This document shows positions 4,328 through 36,224 of a DNA stretch of 45,856 nt, piece after piece. The notes beneath the pieces are model-generated. The model ran no database searches, was not told the origin of the DNA, and worked only from the letters and a program-made list of their open reading frames with translations. A program made the translations under genes and the position numbers. The stretch's first letter is position 1, and every line of letters starts with the position of its first letter. The stretch is taken from NCBI RefSeq assembly GCF_900104615.1, contig NZ_LT629939.1, positions 1,088,435-1,134,290 on the forward strand, given 5' to 3'. The DNA is from Merdimmobilis hominis (GTDB lineage: Bacteria > Bacillota > Clostridia > Oscillospirales > Ruminococcaceae).

Positions 4328-6931
4328 CTATTTGGCTTCAAACCAGGTTTTGCCCACCTTGGCCTCCACCGACATGGGCACGGACAGCTGGACGGCGCCC
4401 TCCATTTCCTCCCGGAGGATGGCAGCGGCCTTTTCATTCTCCTCCACCGGCGATTCCACAATCAGTTCGTCGTGGATCTGCAGCACCAACCGGGATTTCA
4501 TCCCCTCAGCGGCCAGGCGGCGGTGGACCCGCACCATGGCGATTTTGATGATGTCGGCGGCAGTCCCTTGGATGGGGGTGTTCATCGCCACCCGCTCCCC
4601 AAAGGCTTTGAGGTTGTGGTTGCTGGCGGTGAGTTCCGGCAGGTAGCGGCGGCGGCCAAAGAGGGTCTGGACATAGCCGTGTTCTTTGCCAAAGGCAATG
4701 GTGTCCTCCATATACTGCTTCACACCGGAATAGGTGCGCAGGTAGTCTTTGATGTATTTGTCGGCCTCAGCCACCGAAACCCCGATGTCCTGGGAGAGGG
4801 AGAAAGCCCCAATGCCGTAGACAATGCCGAAGTTGACCGCTTTGGCCCGGGAACGCATCAGCGGGGTGACGTAGAGGGGGGGCAGGTTGAACACCTGGCT
4901 GGCGGTGGCGGTGTGGATGTCCGCCCCGTGTAGGAAGGCGTCGATCATGTTTTTATCTTGGGCGATGTGGGCCAGCACCCGCAGCTCGATCTGGGAATAG
5001 TCGGCGTCCACCAGCATCTCGCCGTCACCCGCCCGGAAGAACTTGCGCAGGTTGCTGCCGATTTCGGTGCGGACCGGGATATTCTGCATATTGGGCTCAA
5101 TGGAGCTGATGCGGCCGGTCCGGGTCTCGGTCTGCTGGAAACTGGTGTGAATCCGGCCGTCCTCCCCCACCACCTTCAAAAGGCCGTCCACATAGGTGGA
5201 TTTCAGTTTGGTCAGCTTGCGGTATTCCAGAATATCTTCAATGATGGGGTGTTTGCCCCGCAGGGACTCCAGCACGTCGGCATTGGTGGAATAGCCGCTT
5301 TTGGTCTTTTTGCGGGTGGGCAGCCCCAGCTTGTCAAAGAGGATAGCCCCCAGCTGCTTGGTGGAGTTGATGTTGAACTCCTCCCCTGCATGGGCGTAGA
5401 TGCTGGCCTGCAGCCGGGCGATGTCCACGTCAAGGCCCTGGCCAAAGGCGATGAGGCCGGGGACATCCAGCTCCACCCCGATGCACTCCATGTCCGCCAG
5501 CACCTGGGCCAGGGGGATTTCAATATCCCGCAGCAGGGAATCCTGCCCATGCTCCACAATCTGGGCGGAGAGCCGTTCCCACAGGGGGATGAGCCGGAGG
5601 CCGTCGCCCCCCAAAGCCTGCCATTCCTCCGGCAGTTCGGTGCAGGAGAAGGGGGCCACCTGGTATTCGTCCGCCAGCCGGCGGATGGTGTATTCGGTGG
5701 AGGTAGGGCTTAACAAATACCCCGCCAACTCCACATCAAAATCTACGTTTTGTATATTGATATCGTGATAATACCCATAGCGATGAAGCTTTTTGGATTC
5801 GGTGGTCACCAGTTTTCCAGGGAAGGCCAAAACCCGGCCCAAAACCGAGGCAAAGGGCTTGTCTTCCCGGGAGAGAAGGGCCATCTCCTCCTGGCCGGCC
5901 AGGCACAGGGCGGTGATTTCATCCCCCTCAAAGGCGAAGAGGGCAAAGAGCCGCTCCTCCCCCAAAAGGCGGGTCAGCTGGCCCTCTTTGGGGGAGATAT
6001 GAGGGGTGATCTGGGGCTTTTCATCCGGCTTGTTCACTGCGGGGGCCGCCGATTCTACCGTTCCGTGGAGGCCCAATTTCTCAATCATCGTGTGCATCTC
6101 CAATTTGGAGAGGAGGGTGTAGGCCGCTTGGACATCCCGCTCTTTGAGACGGTAATCCTCCAAATTGCAGTCAATGGGGGCGTGGCGGTCGATTTCTGCC
6201 AGTTTGCGGCTCAGGTAGGCCATCTCTTTGCCCTCTTGGAGCTTTTTGCGGACGCCGGGTTTGACGTCAATGGTGTCCAAATTCTCATAGATGGCATCTA
6301 CACTGCCAAACCGGGAGATGAGGTCCAAGGCCGTCTTCTCCCCGATGCCGGCCACGCCGGGGATGTTGTCGCTGCTGTCCCCCATCAAAGCTTTGACCTC
6401 GATGAGCTGTAAGGGCTCCACTCCATATTTTTCCCGGATGGCGGCGGGGTCGTAGAGGGTGGATTCGGGGCGGCCCATCTTGGTGGCAGCTAGGCGCACC
6501 GCCACCTGGTCGCTGACCAGCTGGAGGCTGTCCCGGTCCCCAGTGGCGAGGACACATTCCTGCCCCTGCTCTACACACACCCGGGAGAGGGTGCCCAGGA
6601 TGTCGTCCGCCTCAAAGCCGGGCAGCTCCACAATGGGGTAGCCCAAATCGGTAAGCAGTTCTTTGAGCACTGGCAGCTGTTGGGCCAGCTCCTCCGGCAT
6701 CCCCTTGCGCTGGGCTTTGTAGCCGTCGTACATCTCATGGCGGAAGGTGGGGTGCTTGACATCAAAAGCACAGGCGATGGCATCTGGCTGCACCTCGTCG
6801 ATAATCTTTAAAAGTATATTCAAAAAGCCATAGATGCCGTTGGTGTACTGGCCATCTTTGGTCGTCAAAAGCTTGATGCCGTAAAAGGCCCGGTTGAGTA
6901 CGCTGTTGGAATCAATCACCAATAATTTCAT
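4328..6931 (-). CDS. polA: DNA polymerase I
   Basis: Repair polymerase that removes RNA primers and fills gaps. At 867 aa the layout is: 5'-nuclease domain (about 1-290, with PGFEADD and GDSSDNIPGVAGIGEKTA), a central 3'-5' exonuclease-like domain (about 300-460), and the polymerase domain. Pol motif A is DADYSQIELR near residue 642, motif B RSRAKAVNFGIVYG near 693, motif C QIHDEL near 820. The proofreading domain lacks the DxE, NxxxD and YxxxD metal ligands where expected, so it is probably inactive, as in Bst and Taq. The start is ATG 6931 (MKLLVIDSNS) after GGAGG; an upstream in-frame extension to 7183 is leader sequence without family similarity. It heads the operon, behind two hairpin elements. 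Confidence 0.96.
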   Translation of the reverse strand: MKLLVIDSNSVLNRAFYGIKLLTTKDGQYTNGIYGFLNILLKIIDEVQPDAIACAFDVKHPTFRHEMYDGYKAQRKGMPEELAQQLPVLKELLTDLGYPIVELPGFEADDILGTLSRVCVEQGQECVLATGDRDSLQLVSDQVAVRLAATKMGRPESTLYDPAAIREKYGVEPLQLIEVKALMGDSSDNIPGVAGIGEKTALDLISRFGSVDAIYENLDTIDVKPGVRKKLQEGKEMAYLSRKLAEIDRHAPIDCNLEDYRLKERDVQAAYTLLSKLEMHTMIEKLGLHGTVESAAPAVNKPDEKPQITPHISPKEGQLTRLLGEERLFALFAFEGDEITALCLAGQEEMALLSREDKPFASVLGRVLAFPGKLVTTESKKLHRYGYYHDINIQNVDFDVELAGYLLSPTSTEYTIRRLADEYQVAPFSCTELPEEWQALGGDGLRLIPLWERLSAQIVEHGQDSLLRDIEIPLAQVLADMECIGVELDVPGLIAFGQGLDVDIARLQASIYAHAGEEFNINSTKQLGAILFDKLGLPTRKKTKSGYSTNADVLESLRGKHPIIEDILEYRKLTKLKSTYVDGLLKVVGEDGRIHTSFQQTETRTGRISSIEPNMQNIPVRTEIGSNLRKFFRAGDGEMLVDADYSQIELRVLAHIAQDKNMIDAFLHGADIHTATASQVFNLPPLYVTPLMRSRAKAVNFGIVYGIGAFSLSQDIGVSVAEADKYIKDYLRTYSGVKQYMEDTIAFGKEHGYVQTLFGRRRYLPELTASNHNLKAFGERVAMNTPIQGTAADIIKIAMVRVHRRLAAEGMKSRLVLQIHDELIVESPVEENEKAAAILREEMEGAVQLSVPMSVEAKVGKTWFEAK

Positions 6932-6989: not shown

Positions 6990-7172
6990 ACGCGAGGGAT
7001 TGCAGATAGCCCGCAGGACGCGGGCCACTTGGAAAATTCTCCAAGCAATGCGCCCCAAAATTGTGTTGCGGCGTTGCCACAGGAAGGGCGGCCCCTCAAA
7101 AAGGCATTGCTCCTATACGGGCCCGAGAGGGATTTCTTCCCCAATGATCGCTTTGCGGCTCTTGTAGCATAA
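6990..7172 (-). repeat. decayed copy of the hairpin element, in the polA leader
   Basis: Read on the minus strand, an extended -10-like TGCTACAAG (7161-7169) runs into an imperfect hairpin (AAGAGCCGC aaa GCGATCATTG). GGAAGAAATCC follows, identical to the first arm of the long stem in the copy at 30478-30608. The rest has diverged: the second arm is not found in place, and a separate hairpin CTTGGA/TTCCAAG appears near 7026-7044. Other short GC inverted repeats follow to the polA start. I read this as a degenerate member of the family. Confidence 0.5.
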
Positions 7173-7180
7173 AATCTGCA

Positions 7181-7276
7181 CAAGCTTTAAGAATTGCGGT
7201 GCGGCTCTGCCGCAAAGGGCTTTGCCCTGTAAGCAATTCTTCGAATGCCACAGGCTTCGCCTGTGGCTATTGTACC
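7181..7276 (-). repeat. structured hairpin element, copy D
   Basis: Minus-strand order: extended -10 TGGTACAAT (7269-7277), hairpin P1 (GCCACAGGC gaa GCCTGTGGC, 7247-7267), long stem P2 of 9 bp (7233-7241 with 7089+100, that is 7189-7197; AGAATTGC/GCAATTCT core), enclosing P3 (AGGGC aaa GCCCT, 7216-7228) and P4 (TGCGGC aga GCCGCA, 7200-7214). Every stem is perfect. The order matches copies at 15964 and 30478 although P1 and P2 sequences differ. It lies in tandem upstream of the decayed copy and of polA. Confidence 0.7.
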
Positions 7277-7325
7277 ACAAATCCTCGCAAAAAGAATGGC
7301 TTTTGCTGTTTTTTCCACCTGGAAA

Positions 7326-15051: not shown

Positions 15052-15762
15052 TTATAGAATTTGGGACACCAACTTGTCCAGCTGCTGGAACTGTTCCTCT
15101 GAAACGGAGATCTTCCCCCGCTCAATGGCGATCAGCCCCTCCTCCTTCAACCGGCTGATATACCGGTACAGGGTGCGCAGGTTGATGCCCAGTTCCTCCG
15201 CCATGGTTTTGCGCTCCACCGGGAGGATGGCGGGAAGGCGGCGGCCGGTGCAGTACTGGTGGATGTAAATGAGCAAGTTTTCCATCCCGCTGTTCAATAG
15301 GCTGCGGTCATTGCGGCGGTAGTTGTTCTGCACAAGGCCCGCCAAGTATTCCAAGGTGATCAAGGCGATGGCGTTGTCCCCATAAATCCAGCGGGAAAAC
15401 TCCTGGGCGGAGAATTCCAGCAGCACGCATTCGGTTGCCGCTGTGACGGTAGCGTCGTAGACCGGCGCCTGGCGGAGCATCTCATACAGCCCGAACAGCT
15501 GCACCGGGTACATGGTGTCAGCGATGATCCGCTTGCCGTCGATGGAATACTTTACAATGTAGCATTTGCCCGCTGCCAGCAGGTAGATTTTATCCACTGG
15601 CAGGCCGCCGCCTATGCACTGCATCCCCTGTTTCAGGTGGACAAGCCGCACCCCGGGCGGGAGGAGCGGCGCAAAGACCTCTGCCGCCTCCCCACAGGAG
15701 TATGGGCGGGCAAAGGCGGTTTGCAGCAGTTGGAAGATGGATTGGTGGGACGATGTCGGCAA
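15052..15762 (-). CDS. Crp/Fnr family transcriptional regulator
   Basis: 236-residue regulator with an N-terminal cyclic-nucleotide-binding-type beta-roll (about 25-140, DKIYLLAAGKCYIVKYSIDGKRIIADTM) and a C-terminal winged helix (about 165-236, with RKTMAEELGINLRTLYRYISRLKEEGLI as the recognition unit). There is no N-terminal Cys cluster for an Fe-S centre, and no full cAMP-binding RxS signature. The start is TTG 15762, seven bases after AGGGGGG; the extension to 15966 covers promoter DNA. It heads the ABC operon and faces yjjI divergently. Likely autoregulation and control of either flank is inference from position and the palindrome at 15921-15942. Confidence 0.85.
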   Translation of the reverse strand: MPTSSHQSIFQLLQTAFARPYSCGEAAEVFAPLLPPGVRLVHLKQGMQCIGGGLPVDKIYLLAAGKCYIVKYSIDGKRIIADTMYPVQLFGLYEMLRQAPVYDATVTAATECVLLEFSAQEFSRWIYGDNAIALITLEYLAGLVQNNYRRNDRSLLNSGMENLLIYIHQYCTGRRLPAILPVERKTMAEELGINLRTLYRYISRLKEEGLIAIERGKISVSEEQFQQLDKLVSQIL

Positions 15763-15920: not shown

Positions 15921-15942
15921 TTAACTGACATCTGTCATTTAA
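15921..15942. promoter_or_regulatory. operator-like palindrome between the Crp-type gene and yjjI
   Basis: TTAA-C-TGACATCTGTCA-T-TTAA is a palindrome over 22 bases apart from the C/T pair and the central dinucleotide. It lies between the two divergent promoters and touches the -35 of the yjjI promoter. It matches neither the classic CRP (TGTGA-N6-TCACA) nor FNR (TTGAT-N4-ATCAA) site, but the half-site TGACA is of a kind Crp/Fnr proteins use. Confidence 0.4.
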
Positions 15943-15967
15943 AAGTGGGCATTTTTTATGATACAAT
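15939..15967 (+). promoter_or_regulatory. promoter of yjjI-yjjW
   Basis: TTAAAA (15939-15944), 17-bp spacer, extended -10 TGATACAAT (15959-15967). The -10 runs directly into hairpin P1 of the structured element. A second TATAAT at 16211-16216 immediately before the ribosome site is too close to the gene for a normal leader. Confidence 0.5.
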
Positions 15968-16098
15968 CATCGCAAAGGCGATGATTGTGGAAGAAATCTC
16001 TGTTAGGGCGAAGCCCTTCCTGCCGCAAAGCGGCATCGAGATTTTTTCCAGTCCGCGAGGACCCGGAAATTACCCGCCGCAAAGGCGATAATTGGGGA
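15964..16098 (+). repeat. structured hairpin element, copy B
   Basis: Plus-strand order: P1 (CAATCATCGC aaag GCGATGATTG, 15964-15987), P2 first arm GGAAGAAATCTC (15989-16000), P3 (AGGGC gaa GCCCT, 16005-16017), P4 (TGCCGC aaa GCGGCA, 16021-16035), P2 second arm GAGATTTTTTCC (16038-16049), giving 12 pairs with one G-U. A P1-like sequence CCGCAAAGGCGATAATTG follows near 16078-16095. It forms the leader of yjjI. The rest of the leader (16099-16228) is GC-rich with short inverted repeats and no gene. Confidence 0.7.
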
Positions 16099-16228
16099 GG
16101 GAACCCTTTTGGGGCGGCGCGCCCTCCCCCTTTCTCCAGTTGTCCCCGGCCAGCAGCCCCACATATAGGGCGCCGCCAGCCCTTTTCACCAATGCGGATA
16201 CACCCGGCTATAATCAGGAGGTTACAGT

Positions 16229-17743
16229 ATGGATCAGTTGCAGCAAAAACAAGAGGAAATCCTGGGGATTCTCCGGGACCCCACCCTAACCCACGAACAG
16301 ACGGTGATGACCTTGGCCAAGGCGGCGGAAAACCTGCTTGCCACCCCCGGCGCGCCAGAGGAATATTACAAACTAAAGGAAGCCGGCATCATCTGCGACC
16401 TGTTTGAGGGCAACGCCCCTTACAGCCCCCGCTATATCCTGCCGGATTATGAAAAATTCTTCCGGGAGGGCAGCCAGTTCCTGCGCCTCGCCCCTCCCAC
16501 TACCCTGCTGGAGGCTATCACAAACCTGCTCATCCTCTACCACCATGTGCCGTCGGTGACCCATTTCCCAGTGTACATCGGCCGCATCGACCGGCTTTTG
16601 GAACCGTTTATTGAGGATGAAGCCAGCGCCAAGCCGCTGATCAAGCACTTTTTGATGCAGATTGACCGGACGGTCACCGACTCCTTCTGCCATGGTGACA
16701 TCGGGCCGGAGGCCACCCGGGCCGGGCGGATCATCCTGGAATGCGAACGGGAACTACAGGATTCCACCCCAAACCTCACCCTGCTGTACGATCCCCAGAT
16801 CACCCCCGATGACTTTGCCCTCCAGTGTGTGGAGGCCGCTTTGGACTGCGCCAAGCCCAGCTTTGCCAACCACCGGATGTTCCTCTCGGAATTTGGGGAG
16901 GACTACGGCATCGCCAGCTGCTACAACGGGCTGCCAGTGGGAGGCGGAGCCTATACCCTCACCCGGCTGGTTCTGGGCAAATTGGCAGAGACCGCCGCTT
17001 CCCGGGAGGATTTCTTCCAGCGGGCCCTTCCCCACGCGGTGGATGTGATGTGCCGCTTTATGGACGCCAAAATCAAATTCCTGGTGGAGGAGACCCCCAT
17101 CTTTTCCGCCAATTTCCTGGTCAAAGAGGGGCTGATCCGCCGGGAGCGGTTCAACGGCCTCTTCGGCATGGTGGGGATGAACGAATGCGTCAACACCCTC
17201 ATGGCCCTGGAGGGGAAACCCGACCGGTTTGGCCACAGCGAAGCCGCTGACGCCTTAGGGGTGGAAATTATGGAGGCCATCGACGCCCTGGTGAAGGCCC
17301 ACAAAAACCCCTACTGTGAATTCTGGAATGGCAGCTTTATCCTCCACGCCCAGGTGGGCATTGCCCAGGATCAAGGGATCAGCCCCGGCACCCGCATCGC
17401 CATCGGGGAGGAGATCCCCCTCTACGACCACCTGCGCCAGGCGGGCCTCTTCCACAAATACTTCCCCTCCGGCACCGGGGACATCTTCCCCTTTGACGCC
17501 ACCTCCGCCCGCAATCCCGCAGCGGTCCTGGATGTCATCAAAGGAGCCTTCCAGGTGGGCATCCGGTATTTTTCCACCTATTCCTCCGATAGCGACGTCA
17601 TCCGCATCACCGGATACCTGGTGAAAAAGTCGGATATCGAAAAGCTGGAACAGAACCAGCAGGTGGTCAACGACACCGTCTTCTTGGGCATGGGGGCCAA
17701 ACACAACGGCCATATCCTAGACCGGAAGGTGCGCAGCCTATGA
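16229..17743 (+). CDS. yjjI: YjjI-type glycyl radical enzyme
   Basis: Glycyl radical enzyme of the YjjI family, about 504 aa against roughly 516 in Escherichia coli; the reaction is unknown. The thiyl-radical cysteine is in the loop GMNECVN near residue 318, and the radical glycine is in the C-terminal RITGYLVKK near residue 459, after the finger-loop region with PFDATSARNP. The C-terminal KHNGHILDRKV tail is a family feature. Activity needs strict anaerobiosis. The stop overlaps the yjjW start by four bases (ATGA). The start ATG 16229 follows CAGGAGG. No microcompartment or substrate-import genes adjoin it. Confidence 0.9.
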   Translation: MDQLQQKQEEILGILRDPTLTHEQTVMTLAKAAENLLATPGAPEEYYKLKEAGIICDLFEGNAPYSPRYILPDYEKFFREGSQFLRLAPPTTLLEAITNLLILYHHVPSVTHFPVYIGRIDRLLEPFIEDEASAKPLIKHFLMQIDRTVTDSFCHGDIGPEATRAGRIILECERELQDSTPNLTLLYDPQITPDDFALQCVEAALDCAKPSFANHRMFLSEFGEDYGIASCYNGLPVGGGAYTLTRLVLGKLAETAASREDFFQRALPHAVDVMCRFMDAKIKFLVEETPIFSANFLVKEGLIRRERFNGLFGMVGMNECVNTLMALEGKPDRFGHSEAADALGVEIMEAIDALVKAHKNPYCEFWNGSFILHAQVGIAQDQGISPGTRIAIGEEIPLYDHLRQAGLFHKYFPSGTGDIFPFDATSARNPAAVLDVIKGAFQVGIRYFSTYSSDSDVIRITGYLVKKSDIEKLEQNQQVVNDTVFLGMGAKHNGHILDRKVRSL

Positions 17744-29937: not shown

Positions 29938-30450
29938 CTATGCCGGTCCATTTAAAGAAAGGGTGGTCTTTTTGACAAACAGCCGGTTGACGGTGGCCAA
30001 TACCATGGCCCGCACCAATACCGTTTGATCGGTCTCAGCTGTGGCCACCATGGGGAGGGGGTTGCCCGTGGGGGAAAAGGTCTCCCGCAGGGCGTTTTCA
30101 AACTCGGTGCAGAAATAGTCGTAGGAGATCTCCAACGGATAGGTCTCCTTCTGCACTTGGAAGAGGGCGCAGATCTCCGGCACGGTGAAGACCTCTTTCA
30201 GCAGGCTGATCACCACTAGGCGGGCAAGGTGCTCCCGGCCGTATTTCTTACGGATAGAGGGTTCTAAAGCGCCGGTCTTGATGTAGTTGCTCACCATAGC
30301 GCCGGTGATGGCATAAGGCTGCCCATACAGCGGGTGGATCACCCCTGCAACATAAGAAAGGGTTTGATCCAGATAGAGCCCCAATTCTGGCAGCTGGCTG
30401 TACCGGGGTAGGCGGAACGCCAAAAGTTCTTCCACCTCCTGCTTCTCCAT
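29938..30450 (-). CDS. DUF1836 domain protein, MerR-like helix-turn-helix
   Basis: A 170-residue soluble protein of the Firmicute DUF1836 family, which carries a MerR-like DNA-binding head and has no assigned function. The family pattern is RLPRYSQLPELGLYLDQTLSYV near residues 12-33, then ITGAMVSNYIKTGAL near 48-62 and KKYGREHLARLVVISLLKEVFTVPEICALF near 69-98, resembling the winged-helix and linker of MerR proteins. I start at ATG 30450 (MEKQEVEELL) after AAAGGGGG; upstream in-frame sequence is the structured leader. It is transcribed from a very good promoter through that leader, divergently from degV. Confidence 0.75.
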   Translation of the reverse strand: MEKQEVEELLAFRLPRYSQLPELGLYLDQTLSYVAGVIHPLYGQPYAITGAMVSNYIKTGALEPSIRKKYGREHLARLVVISLLKEVFTVPEICALFQVQKETYPLEISYDYFCTEFENALRETFSPTGNPLPMVATAETDQTVLVRAMVLATVNRLFVKKTTLSLNGPA

Positions 30451-30477
30451 CCTTGAGTCCCCCTTTGTATTGTAGTG

Positions 30478-30608
30478 CCAATAGTCGCTTCTGCGGCTGT
30501 TGCCCCATAAGCCTGTACAAACCTGGAAAAATCCTGGTGCCGCTTTGCGGCGGGAGGGGCTGCGCCCCCAAAGGATTTCTTCCCCAATGGTCGCTTCTGC
30601 GACCATTG
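30478..30608 (-). repeat. structured hairpin element, copy A
   Basis: Minus-strand order: P1 (CAATGGTCGC agaa GCGACCATTG, 30585-30608), P2 first arm GGAAGAAATCCT (30572-30583), P3 (GGGGC gca GCCCC, 30556-30568), P4 (GCCGC aaa GCGGC, 30539-30551), P2 second arm AGGATTTTTCC (30525-30535), making 11 pairs with one bulged G. A second P1-like hairpin (CAACAGCCGC agaa GCGACTATTG, about 30478-30501) closes the element 28 bp before the DUF1836 start. It is the whole leader of that gene. Confidence 0.75.
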
Positions 30609-30633
30609 TAACATGATTGGCGAATCCCGTCAA
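30605..30633 (-). promoter_or_regulatory. strong promoter reading into copy A and the DUF1836 gene
   Basis: Minus strand TTGACG (30628-30633), exactly 17 bp, then extended -10 TGTTACAAT (TACAAT at 30605-30610). The -10 hexamer overlaps the outer bases of hairpin P1. Confidence 0.8.
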
Positions 30634-35944: not shown

Positions 35945-36201
35945 ATAAAAAATCCCCGTCTCCCTGTGCCCAATGCACAGAAGGGACGAGGAAAATTCCA
36001 CGCGGTGCCACCCTGCTTAGGCGGACAGCGCCGCCTCACTTTTGCCCTTTTTAACGCAAAGGGGACACGGGCAGGGCTTGCGCAACGCTCACCTTGCCAG
36101 CTCGGCGGGTGTCCTTCCCACTGCAAATTCCGCTGGCCCTCTCAGCAGCCGGGCCATTCTCTGTGGCGGTTCGCAGCGCTACTATTCCCGCGTCAGCGCC
36201 G
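35945..36201 (-). promoter_or_regulatory. T-box leader of hisS-aspS
   Basis: The minus strand carries the invariant T-box GGGTGGCACCGCG (36001-36013, read backwards), followed by a terminator that competes with it: two paired blocks, CCTCGTC/GACGGGG and CTGTGC/GCACAG, then T6 (about 35948-35991). Upstream are Stem I features, GGGAATAGTA and AGAGA with GCTGCTGAGAG. Uncharged tRNA would stabilise the antiterminator and allow hisS-aspS expression. The specifier side of Stem I reads GGACACC, offering CAC (His) and an overlapping GAC (Asp). A weak -10 TATAGA is at 36208-36213. Confidence 0.88.
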
Positions 36202-36224
36202 TTTCCATCTATACAAGAAGAGAA

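Follow-up and report, generated by a model that had tools for sequence, protein, structure and literature searches.

The intergenic elements A, B and D of Merdimmobilis hominis are part of a large family of structured, modular repeats that sit on promoters across the genome. They lie in a window of 45,856 nt, the whole stretch of DNA that was analysed (contig NZ_LT629939.1, positions 1,088,435-1,134,290). With a probability of roughly 0.6, they represent a modular, non-autonomous dispersed repeat with a MITE- or BOX-like lifestyle and with extended -10 boxes as its points of entry into the genome. The original prediction had left two readings side by side, a widespread leader RNA and a promoter-carrying miniature repeat. 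The unrelated flanks, the local duplications, the near-absence from a relative and the patchy spread favour a dispersed repeat anchored on promoters over a dedicated leader RNA.

Architecture of the elements in the window

All stems claimed for copies A, B and D are present in the sequence as written. Their proposed common order, P1 followed by P2 enclosing P3 and P4, holds as well: RNAalifold returns identical P1-P4 stems, unguided, from an alignment of 10 type-I copies. The claim that each element starts in the CAAT of the -10 box needs correction for copy D, whose P1 (GCCACAGGC) begins right after the box; in copy A, P1 starts at 30608 and the box spans 30610-30605. All three elements are arrays rather than lone copies (Table 1): a partial second copy follows 106-107 nt downstream in both A and B, and a degenerate type-I copy comes after D. 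Copy D represents type II, a sister subfamily with its own P1 and its own P2, GAAGAATTGC/GCAATTCTT.

Table 1. Positions of repeat modules, their parts and adjacent genes in the window; R1 is the covariance model built from 10 type-I copies
Feature	Position	Strand	Remark
DNA polymerase I gene, downstream of D	4328..6931	-	
Degenerate type-I copy after D, within the D array	7042..7169	-	R1 hit E=2.2e-4, converted to window coordinates
Copy D, type-II module	7172..7277	-	TGG 7277-7275, -10 TACAAT 7274-7269; R1 hit 7172-7272, 55.2 bits
Palindrome TGACATCTGTCA, 24 nt before the copy-B -10	15926..15937	+	equal spacing in a relative free of the element (L145)
Copy B, full type-I module	15959..16064	+	-10 at 15962-15967; R1 hit 104.8 bits
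Degenerate second type-I copy in array B, P4 missing	16069..16140	+	AAAG P1 loop as in the first copy; extent approximate, by eye
YjjI-like glycyl radical enzyme gene, downstream of B	16229..17743	+	
DUF1836 protein gene, downstream of A	29938..30450	-	
P1', partial second copy in array A	30478..30503	-	AGAA loop as in the first P1
Copy A, full type-I module	30510..30613	-	R1 hit 106.7 bits
Copy A, P4	30551-30539	-	followed by the linker
Copy A, P3	30568-30556	-	
Copy A, P2	30583-30572 with 30535-30525	-	
Copy A, P1	30608-30585	-	
Copy A, -10 box	30610-30605	-	preceded by TGn
-35-like TTGACG of copy A, outside the element	30628..30633	-	17 nt from the -10

Upstream of copy B, the palindrome TGACATCTGTCA, which resembles CRP/FNR motifs, lies near a gene that is divergent from yjjI (15052-15762, minus strand) and encodes cyclic-nucleotide-binding and Crp-like HTH domains. 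The palindrome is kept in a relative with one base changed and its spacing to the -10 unchanged.

Copy number, orientation and downstream genes

In its own genome, R1 gives 80 hits at E<=1, a lower bound, since 150 of 3652 candidates were scored. Across the 2.58-Mb genome, blastn with copy A gives at least 38 matches (E<=0.01), with 40 of 50 candidates scored. The 80 hits group into 60 arrays, or 56 once four arrays in exact duplications are left out. These exact direct duplications, of 2969, 3003, 968 and 1131 bp (L114, L120, L116, L119; genome 2.39-2.54 Mb), lie about 2.8-3.0 kb apart and may reflect either an assembly artefact or an element-linked duplication. With 60 arrays of modules of about 106 nt, the family has the small size, the lack of coding capacity and the high dispersed copy number of MITEs.

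The arrays are intergenic and strongly oriented. By the gene calls made in the present analysis, no array of the 60 extends more than 60 nt into a gene, and the nearest downstream gene is co-directional for 58 of the 60 (55 of 56 without duplicates, with 315221 as the exception). Of the intergenic gaps of 100 bp or more within the fetched regions, those bearing an element are divergent in 31 cases, tandem in 26 and convergent in one, duplicates kept; the element-free gaps number 13 divergent, 65 tandem and 20 convergent. The genes that follow include polA, uvrC, lepA, NAD synthase, kdpD and rlmB, and Pfam hits in 18 of 19 further downstream proteins scanned cover many unrelated functions. Such a mixture of functions makes a dedicated riboswitch unlikely. 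A genome search had been proposed beforehand as the check on whether the family is widespread, and it returned dozens of matches before unrelated genes, together with strong covariation.

Anchoring on extended -10 boxes

The majority of copies start at an extended -10 box, TGnTAYAAT. Seven of the 60 arrays have no -10 by pattern and four duplicates were removed, leaving 49 distinct arrays for the counts. T occupies position -3 in 47 of these 49 and G occupies position -2 in 48; one array (2529399) is anchored on the wrong hexamer. Fewer than half of the copies have a -35-like signal 17-18 nt upstream: a -35-like hexamer matching at least 4 of 6 positions at a spacer of 16-18 occurs in 21 of the 49 arrays, compared with 6 and 8 at two control offsets. 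The sequence upstream of the -10 is unrelated between arrays, so any -35 present belongs to unique DNA beyond the repeat. The fetched regions also contain 30 intergenic TGnTAYAAT sites without the element, 26 of them co-directional with the next gene, so boxes of this kind look like common native promoters.

Fold and covariation

The fold itself is well supported. Single-sequence folds give z-scores of -3.7 (A), -7.5 (B) and -5.3 (D), and none of 200 shuffles is as stable. In the alignment of 10 type-I copies from the own genome, pairing holds in 99.0% of cells. Both partners change in 11 of the 31 pairs, a number that none of 500 shuffles reaches (mean 6.4); with the partners slid, it is at most 3. 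Four of five covariation measures exceed all 500 shuffles in this alignment, the remaining one being further pair types, which are no higher than in shuffles (16 versus 16.2). Among 51 distinct copies, paired cells make up 91.2%, both sides change in 28 of 31 pairs and all five measures exceed all 500 shuffles, in an alignment that is fitted to the model and with shuffles that ignore relatedness. The original observation that changes on one arm are matched on the other is thus borne out as strong covariation. RNAalifold on 20 type-II copies does not recover P2, and the figures given here leave out its pair counts.

P1 overlaps the -10 box and probably behaves as DNA; P2-P4 may act as RNA. A DNA role, suggested earlier for P1, agrees with its mismatches, which show no preference for G-U over A-C (16 versus 21), as would be expected of a DNA palindrome. 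The P2-P4 mismatches comprise 42 G-U and 15 A-C, leaving out one column in which G-U is the commonest pair. Their G-U share of G-U plus A-C, 0.74 versus 0.61 in shuffles (0 of 2000), stands out, and a control on the difference between the two counts is not significant (p 0.47). Neither control takes relatedness into account, and the model used to select the copies favours G-U, so the excess is no more than suggestive.

At the usual spacing, transcription from the -10 would be expected to start within the P1 loop, which would keep P1 from forming in the RNA made there. Without the 5' arm of P1, a copy-A transcript folds with a z-score of -0.23, and 76 of 200 shuffles are as stable. This result argues against a simple leader RNA and also against a well-folded P2-P4 leader at that locus. 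The case holds a general lesson: covariation alone can suggest a leader RNA even where part of the fold, here P1, may be a DNA feature.

Modular arrays and local duplication

Arrays consist of successive units (type I, type II and partial type I), and a unit as a rule closes with GTTTGTGCAGACTTTRTGGTAYAAT. Such tandem arrays of modular units with a structured fold are also a trait of BOX elements. Type-II copies share a mean pairwise identity of 80% (n=20, lowest pair 52%), compared with 25-28% in their flanks (n=17). A third type, with the palindrome TTGTTACAAGC/GCTTGTAACA, is seen by eye within the P3 region of several type-I copies. Its nesting in copies such as 485685, 1363971 and 2070529 suggests insertion. 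Tandem and truncated copies are common, and by eye P1 alone is left at 230673, 277176 and 1420602.

The loops of P1 record local events. A P1 and the next P1-like match have an identical loop in 9 of 20 pairs, where 1.6 are expected and none of 20,000 shuffles does as well, although these regular-expression pairs include some chance second matches. All seven pairs of P1 copies 106-107 nt apart share their loop, and the plausible P1 pairs at 485685 and 2373327 have loops that differ. The recurrence of the first copy's loop variant in the partial copy that follows it shows local duplication.

No inverted ends of the MITE terminal-repeat kind or of the 26-bp Correia kind are seen by eye; the ends are direct repeats, TRTGGTAYAAT. 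The original prediction would have taken target-site duplications as evidence for a mobile repeat; no classical ones could be made out, as the left and right -10 variants match inconsistently by eye. There is a direct duplication around P1, and tandem duplication could also give it.

Relatives and spread

A comparison is offered by CALXEL01 (L145/G313), a metagenome-assembled genome whose YjjI protein is 82% identical. R1 gives a single hit there, at E=0.31, which is essentially none. By eye, its yjjI gene has an extended -10, TGTGCTAGAAT, 82 nt before the ATG and no repeat, with the upstream palindrome 24 nt from the -10 as in the own genome. The polA leader likewise begins by eye at an extended -10, TGTGGTATACT, 66 nt before the ATG, again with no repeat. 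For rlmB the comparison is weak because the candidate box, TATGGTATAAT, lies 245 nt from the ATG. DNA identity within the yjjI region is about 76% and the leaders do not align, so the relative reveals element-free promoters rather than the exact joint. Its DUF1836 match is 29% identical and leaves the copy-A promoter without a counterpart to compare; a comparison of L110 (3001-3163) with G313 was set aside because the downstream genes differ.

The wider distribution is patchy. R1 finds no match in five named loci or in the genus of this relative (one genome). At E<=0.001 it matches at least 11 of 297 genomes of the family (10 of 126 genera) and at least 8 of 394 genomes of the order (8 of 169 genera), own genome included in each; these are lower bounds from searches with stricter filters and 13 or 10 candidates scored per genome. 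By eye, the P1-P2-P3-P4 order recurs with different sequence in G048, G187, G098, G232, G653, G635 and G584, and G353, G390 and G399 match mostly through P1. G653, from another family, carries two single units with direct repeats of 19 and 14 bases at both ends that contain the -10; these repeats can equally be explained as remnants of tandem duplication. Exact-pattern scans of IMG/VR for type I and type II gave no match, nor did BLASTN of copy D against phages or of copy A against plasmids.

Anchoring on a -10 is not universal, since some units begin at stop codons. They start at most 10 bases from an upstream stop codon in 3 of 5 units fetched from G048 (L130, L140, L144), 2 of 4 from G187 (L131, L137) and the single one from G009 (L061). 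Another hairpin family has several copies with TATAAT-like boxes at both ends and a P1, TATAATAGCCGC/GCGGCTATTATA, that spans the whole -10; it is found at L063, L066 and L068-L072 (G030) and at L064 and L067 (G019).

Proposed mechanism and alternative explanations

In the favoured reading, a unit of about 106 nt would consist of an extended -10 (TGnTAYAAT) overlapping or abutting the palindrome P1, then P2 with P3 and P4, a linker with GTTTGTGC, and TRTGGTAYAAT. It would join the genome at the extended -10 of an existing promoter, oriented with transcription. Joined at that point and in that orientation, it would leave the native -35 and -10 in place and become the 5' leader of the mRNA. A further extended -10 closes each unit, which would allow members of different subfamilies to stack in tandem, and the arrays may later erode from the 3' side. 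P1 would act as DNA, its 5' arm preceding the expected start site. P2-P4 would be transcribed and probably fold compactly, in a form tolerated by the mRNA 5' region or protecting it. We infer mobility from these patterns, with active insertion at -10 boxes as the leading explanation; recombination at the -10, an enzyme acting in trans and an effect on expression would belong to the same scheme. The orientation bias could also be explained by selection after random insertion. It is conceivable, though unlikely, that these are mobile structured non-coding elements, patchy in the order, with the extended -10 as insertion site and with their own P2-P4 RNA assisting the reaction.

A vertically inherited cis-regulatory leader RNA, in which P2-P4 senses a common signal and controls a regulon of about 55 genes, would account for the strong covariation, the co-directional 5' position, the raised G-U share of P2-P4 (0.74 versus 0.61) and the recurrence by eye of the GTTTGTGC linker in G232 and G048. 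It remains improbable in view of the unrelated functions of the downstream genes, the lack of the element before at least yjjI and polA in G313, and the weak fold of the copy-A transcript (z -0.23). Sequences also diverge between genera while copies within a genome are alike, and tandem or truncated copies, some reduced to P1, are frequent.

Another explanation is that an old repeat was domesticated as a structured promoter or insulator and spread by gene conversion and tandem duplication rather than by active insertion. At the -10 and start site, the P1 palindrome would ease melting or cruciform formation, and the P2-P4 hairpins would protect the mRNA 5' end. Such a role fits the loci where P1 is kept by eye at the leading -10 after P2-P4 are gone (230673, 277176, 1420602), the several downstream P1' copies whose 5' arms by eye no longer match the 3' arm, and P1 mismatches without strand preference (16 G-U, 21 A-C). 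It is nonetheless a doubtful alternative, as it leaves the arrival of copies at about 55 unrelated promoters unexplained.

Decayed products of an HUH (Y1) system of the REP/RAYT or IS200/IS605 kind, with P1 as the left-end hairpin, would match a hairpin that adjoins the left boundary, arms that still pair while their sequence varies and Y1 genes in 7 of 12 genomes checked, yet this origin is very improbable given direct repeats at both unit ends, unlike the tetranucleotide arrangement of REP elements, and no Y1 transposase match (PF01797) in the own genome (G000, 100% complete by table), G187, G232, G030 or G313. Absence from the own genome speaks strongly against a Y1 transposase as the mobiliser. 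G048 contains 34 Y1 transposase matches, most of them partial and many at contig ends, as if numerous similar IS copies had broken up the assembly.

Comparison with known systems

The original prediction recognised no named class, and Rfam agrees: it has no match to the elements, with the window searched at the gathering threshold and 12 loci at E<=1. The sole Rfam 15 match in the window at the gathering threshold is a T-box leader at 35979-36205 (minus strand, 101.9 bits). Candidate leader RNAs in Rfam resemble the elements in their multiple stems, covariation and 5' position; they differ in that no curated covariance model matches the elements.

The dispersed repeats favoured here share features with several known families. 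The Correia elements (CREE) of Neisseria are described as small, high-copy, non-autonomous elements, mostly just upstream of genes and with sigma-70-like promoter sequences (PMC10969869), delimited by 26-bp inverted repeats (PMC3049150). Size, copy number, non-autonomy, gene-upstream position and promoter sequences are common to both; the present units differ in their direct -10 repeats at the ends, the outside -35 and the P2/P3/P4 junction. BOX elements of Streptococcus pneumoniae are described as modular, with repeated internal units, predicted secondary structure, dispersal and occasional composites, and as having terminal inverted repeats and target-site duplications, with overrepresentation between convergent genes and, slightly, between divergent ones (PMC3049150). 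Modularity, structure and dispersal are shared, whereas here one of 58 occupied gaps is convergent and 31 are divergent. REP/BIME/REPIN sequences with RAYT (Y1) are likewise intergenic hairpin repeats in high copy (PMC2817692, PMC3116915, PMC3733652). The present elements differ from them in occupying a genome without a Y1 gene and in forming one-directional, promoter-anchored arrays.

Judged by titles and the beginnings of abstracts, none of the papers listed has this family as its subject and, as far as these literature searches go, it appears to be unpublished.

Biological significance

Small interspersed repeats usually occupy places where the harm is slight, such as the gaps between convergent genes in pneumococcus (PMC3049150). 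For a selfish element, sitting correctly oriented on the -10 boxes of housekeeping genes, polA and lepA among them, would be a way to preserve the promoters it occupies, and it would also supply new 5' leaders to dozens of genes at once. In the unlikely case that the elements move with the help of their own RNA, a -10 at both ends would allow integration at promoters without silencing them, and the P2-P4 RNA might, for instance, guide or scaffold a recombinase that acts in trans. The similar units found across several families of the order suggest a class of elements that has gone unnoticed.
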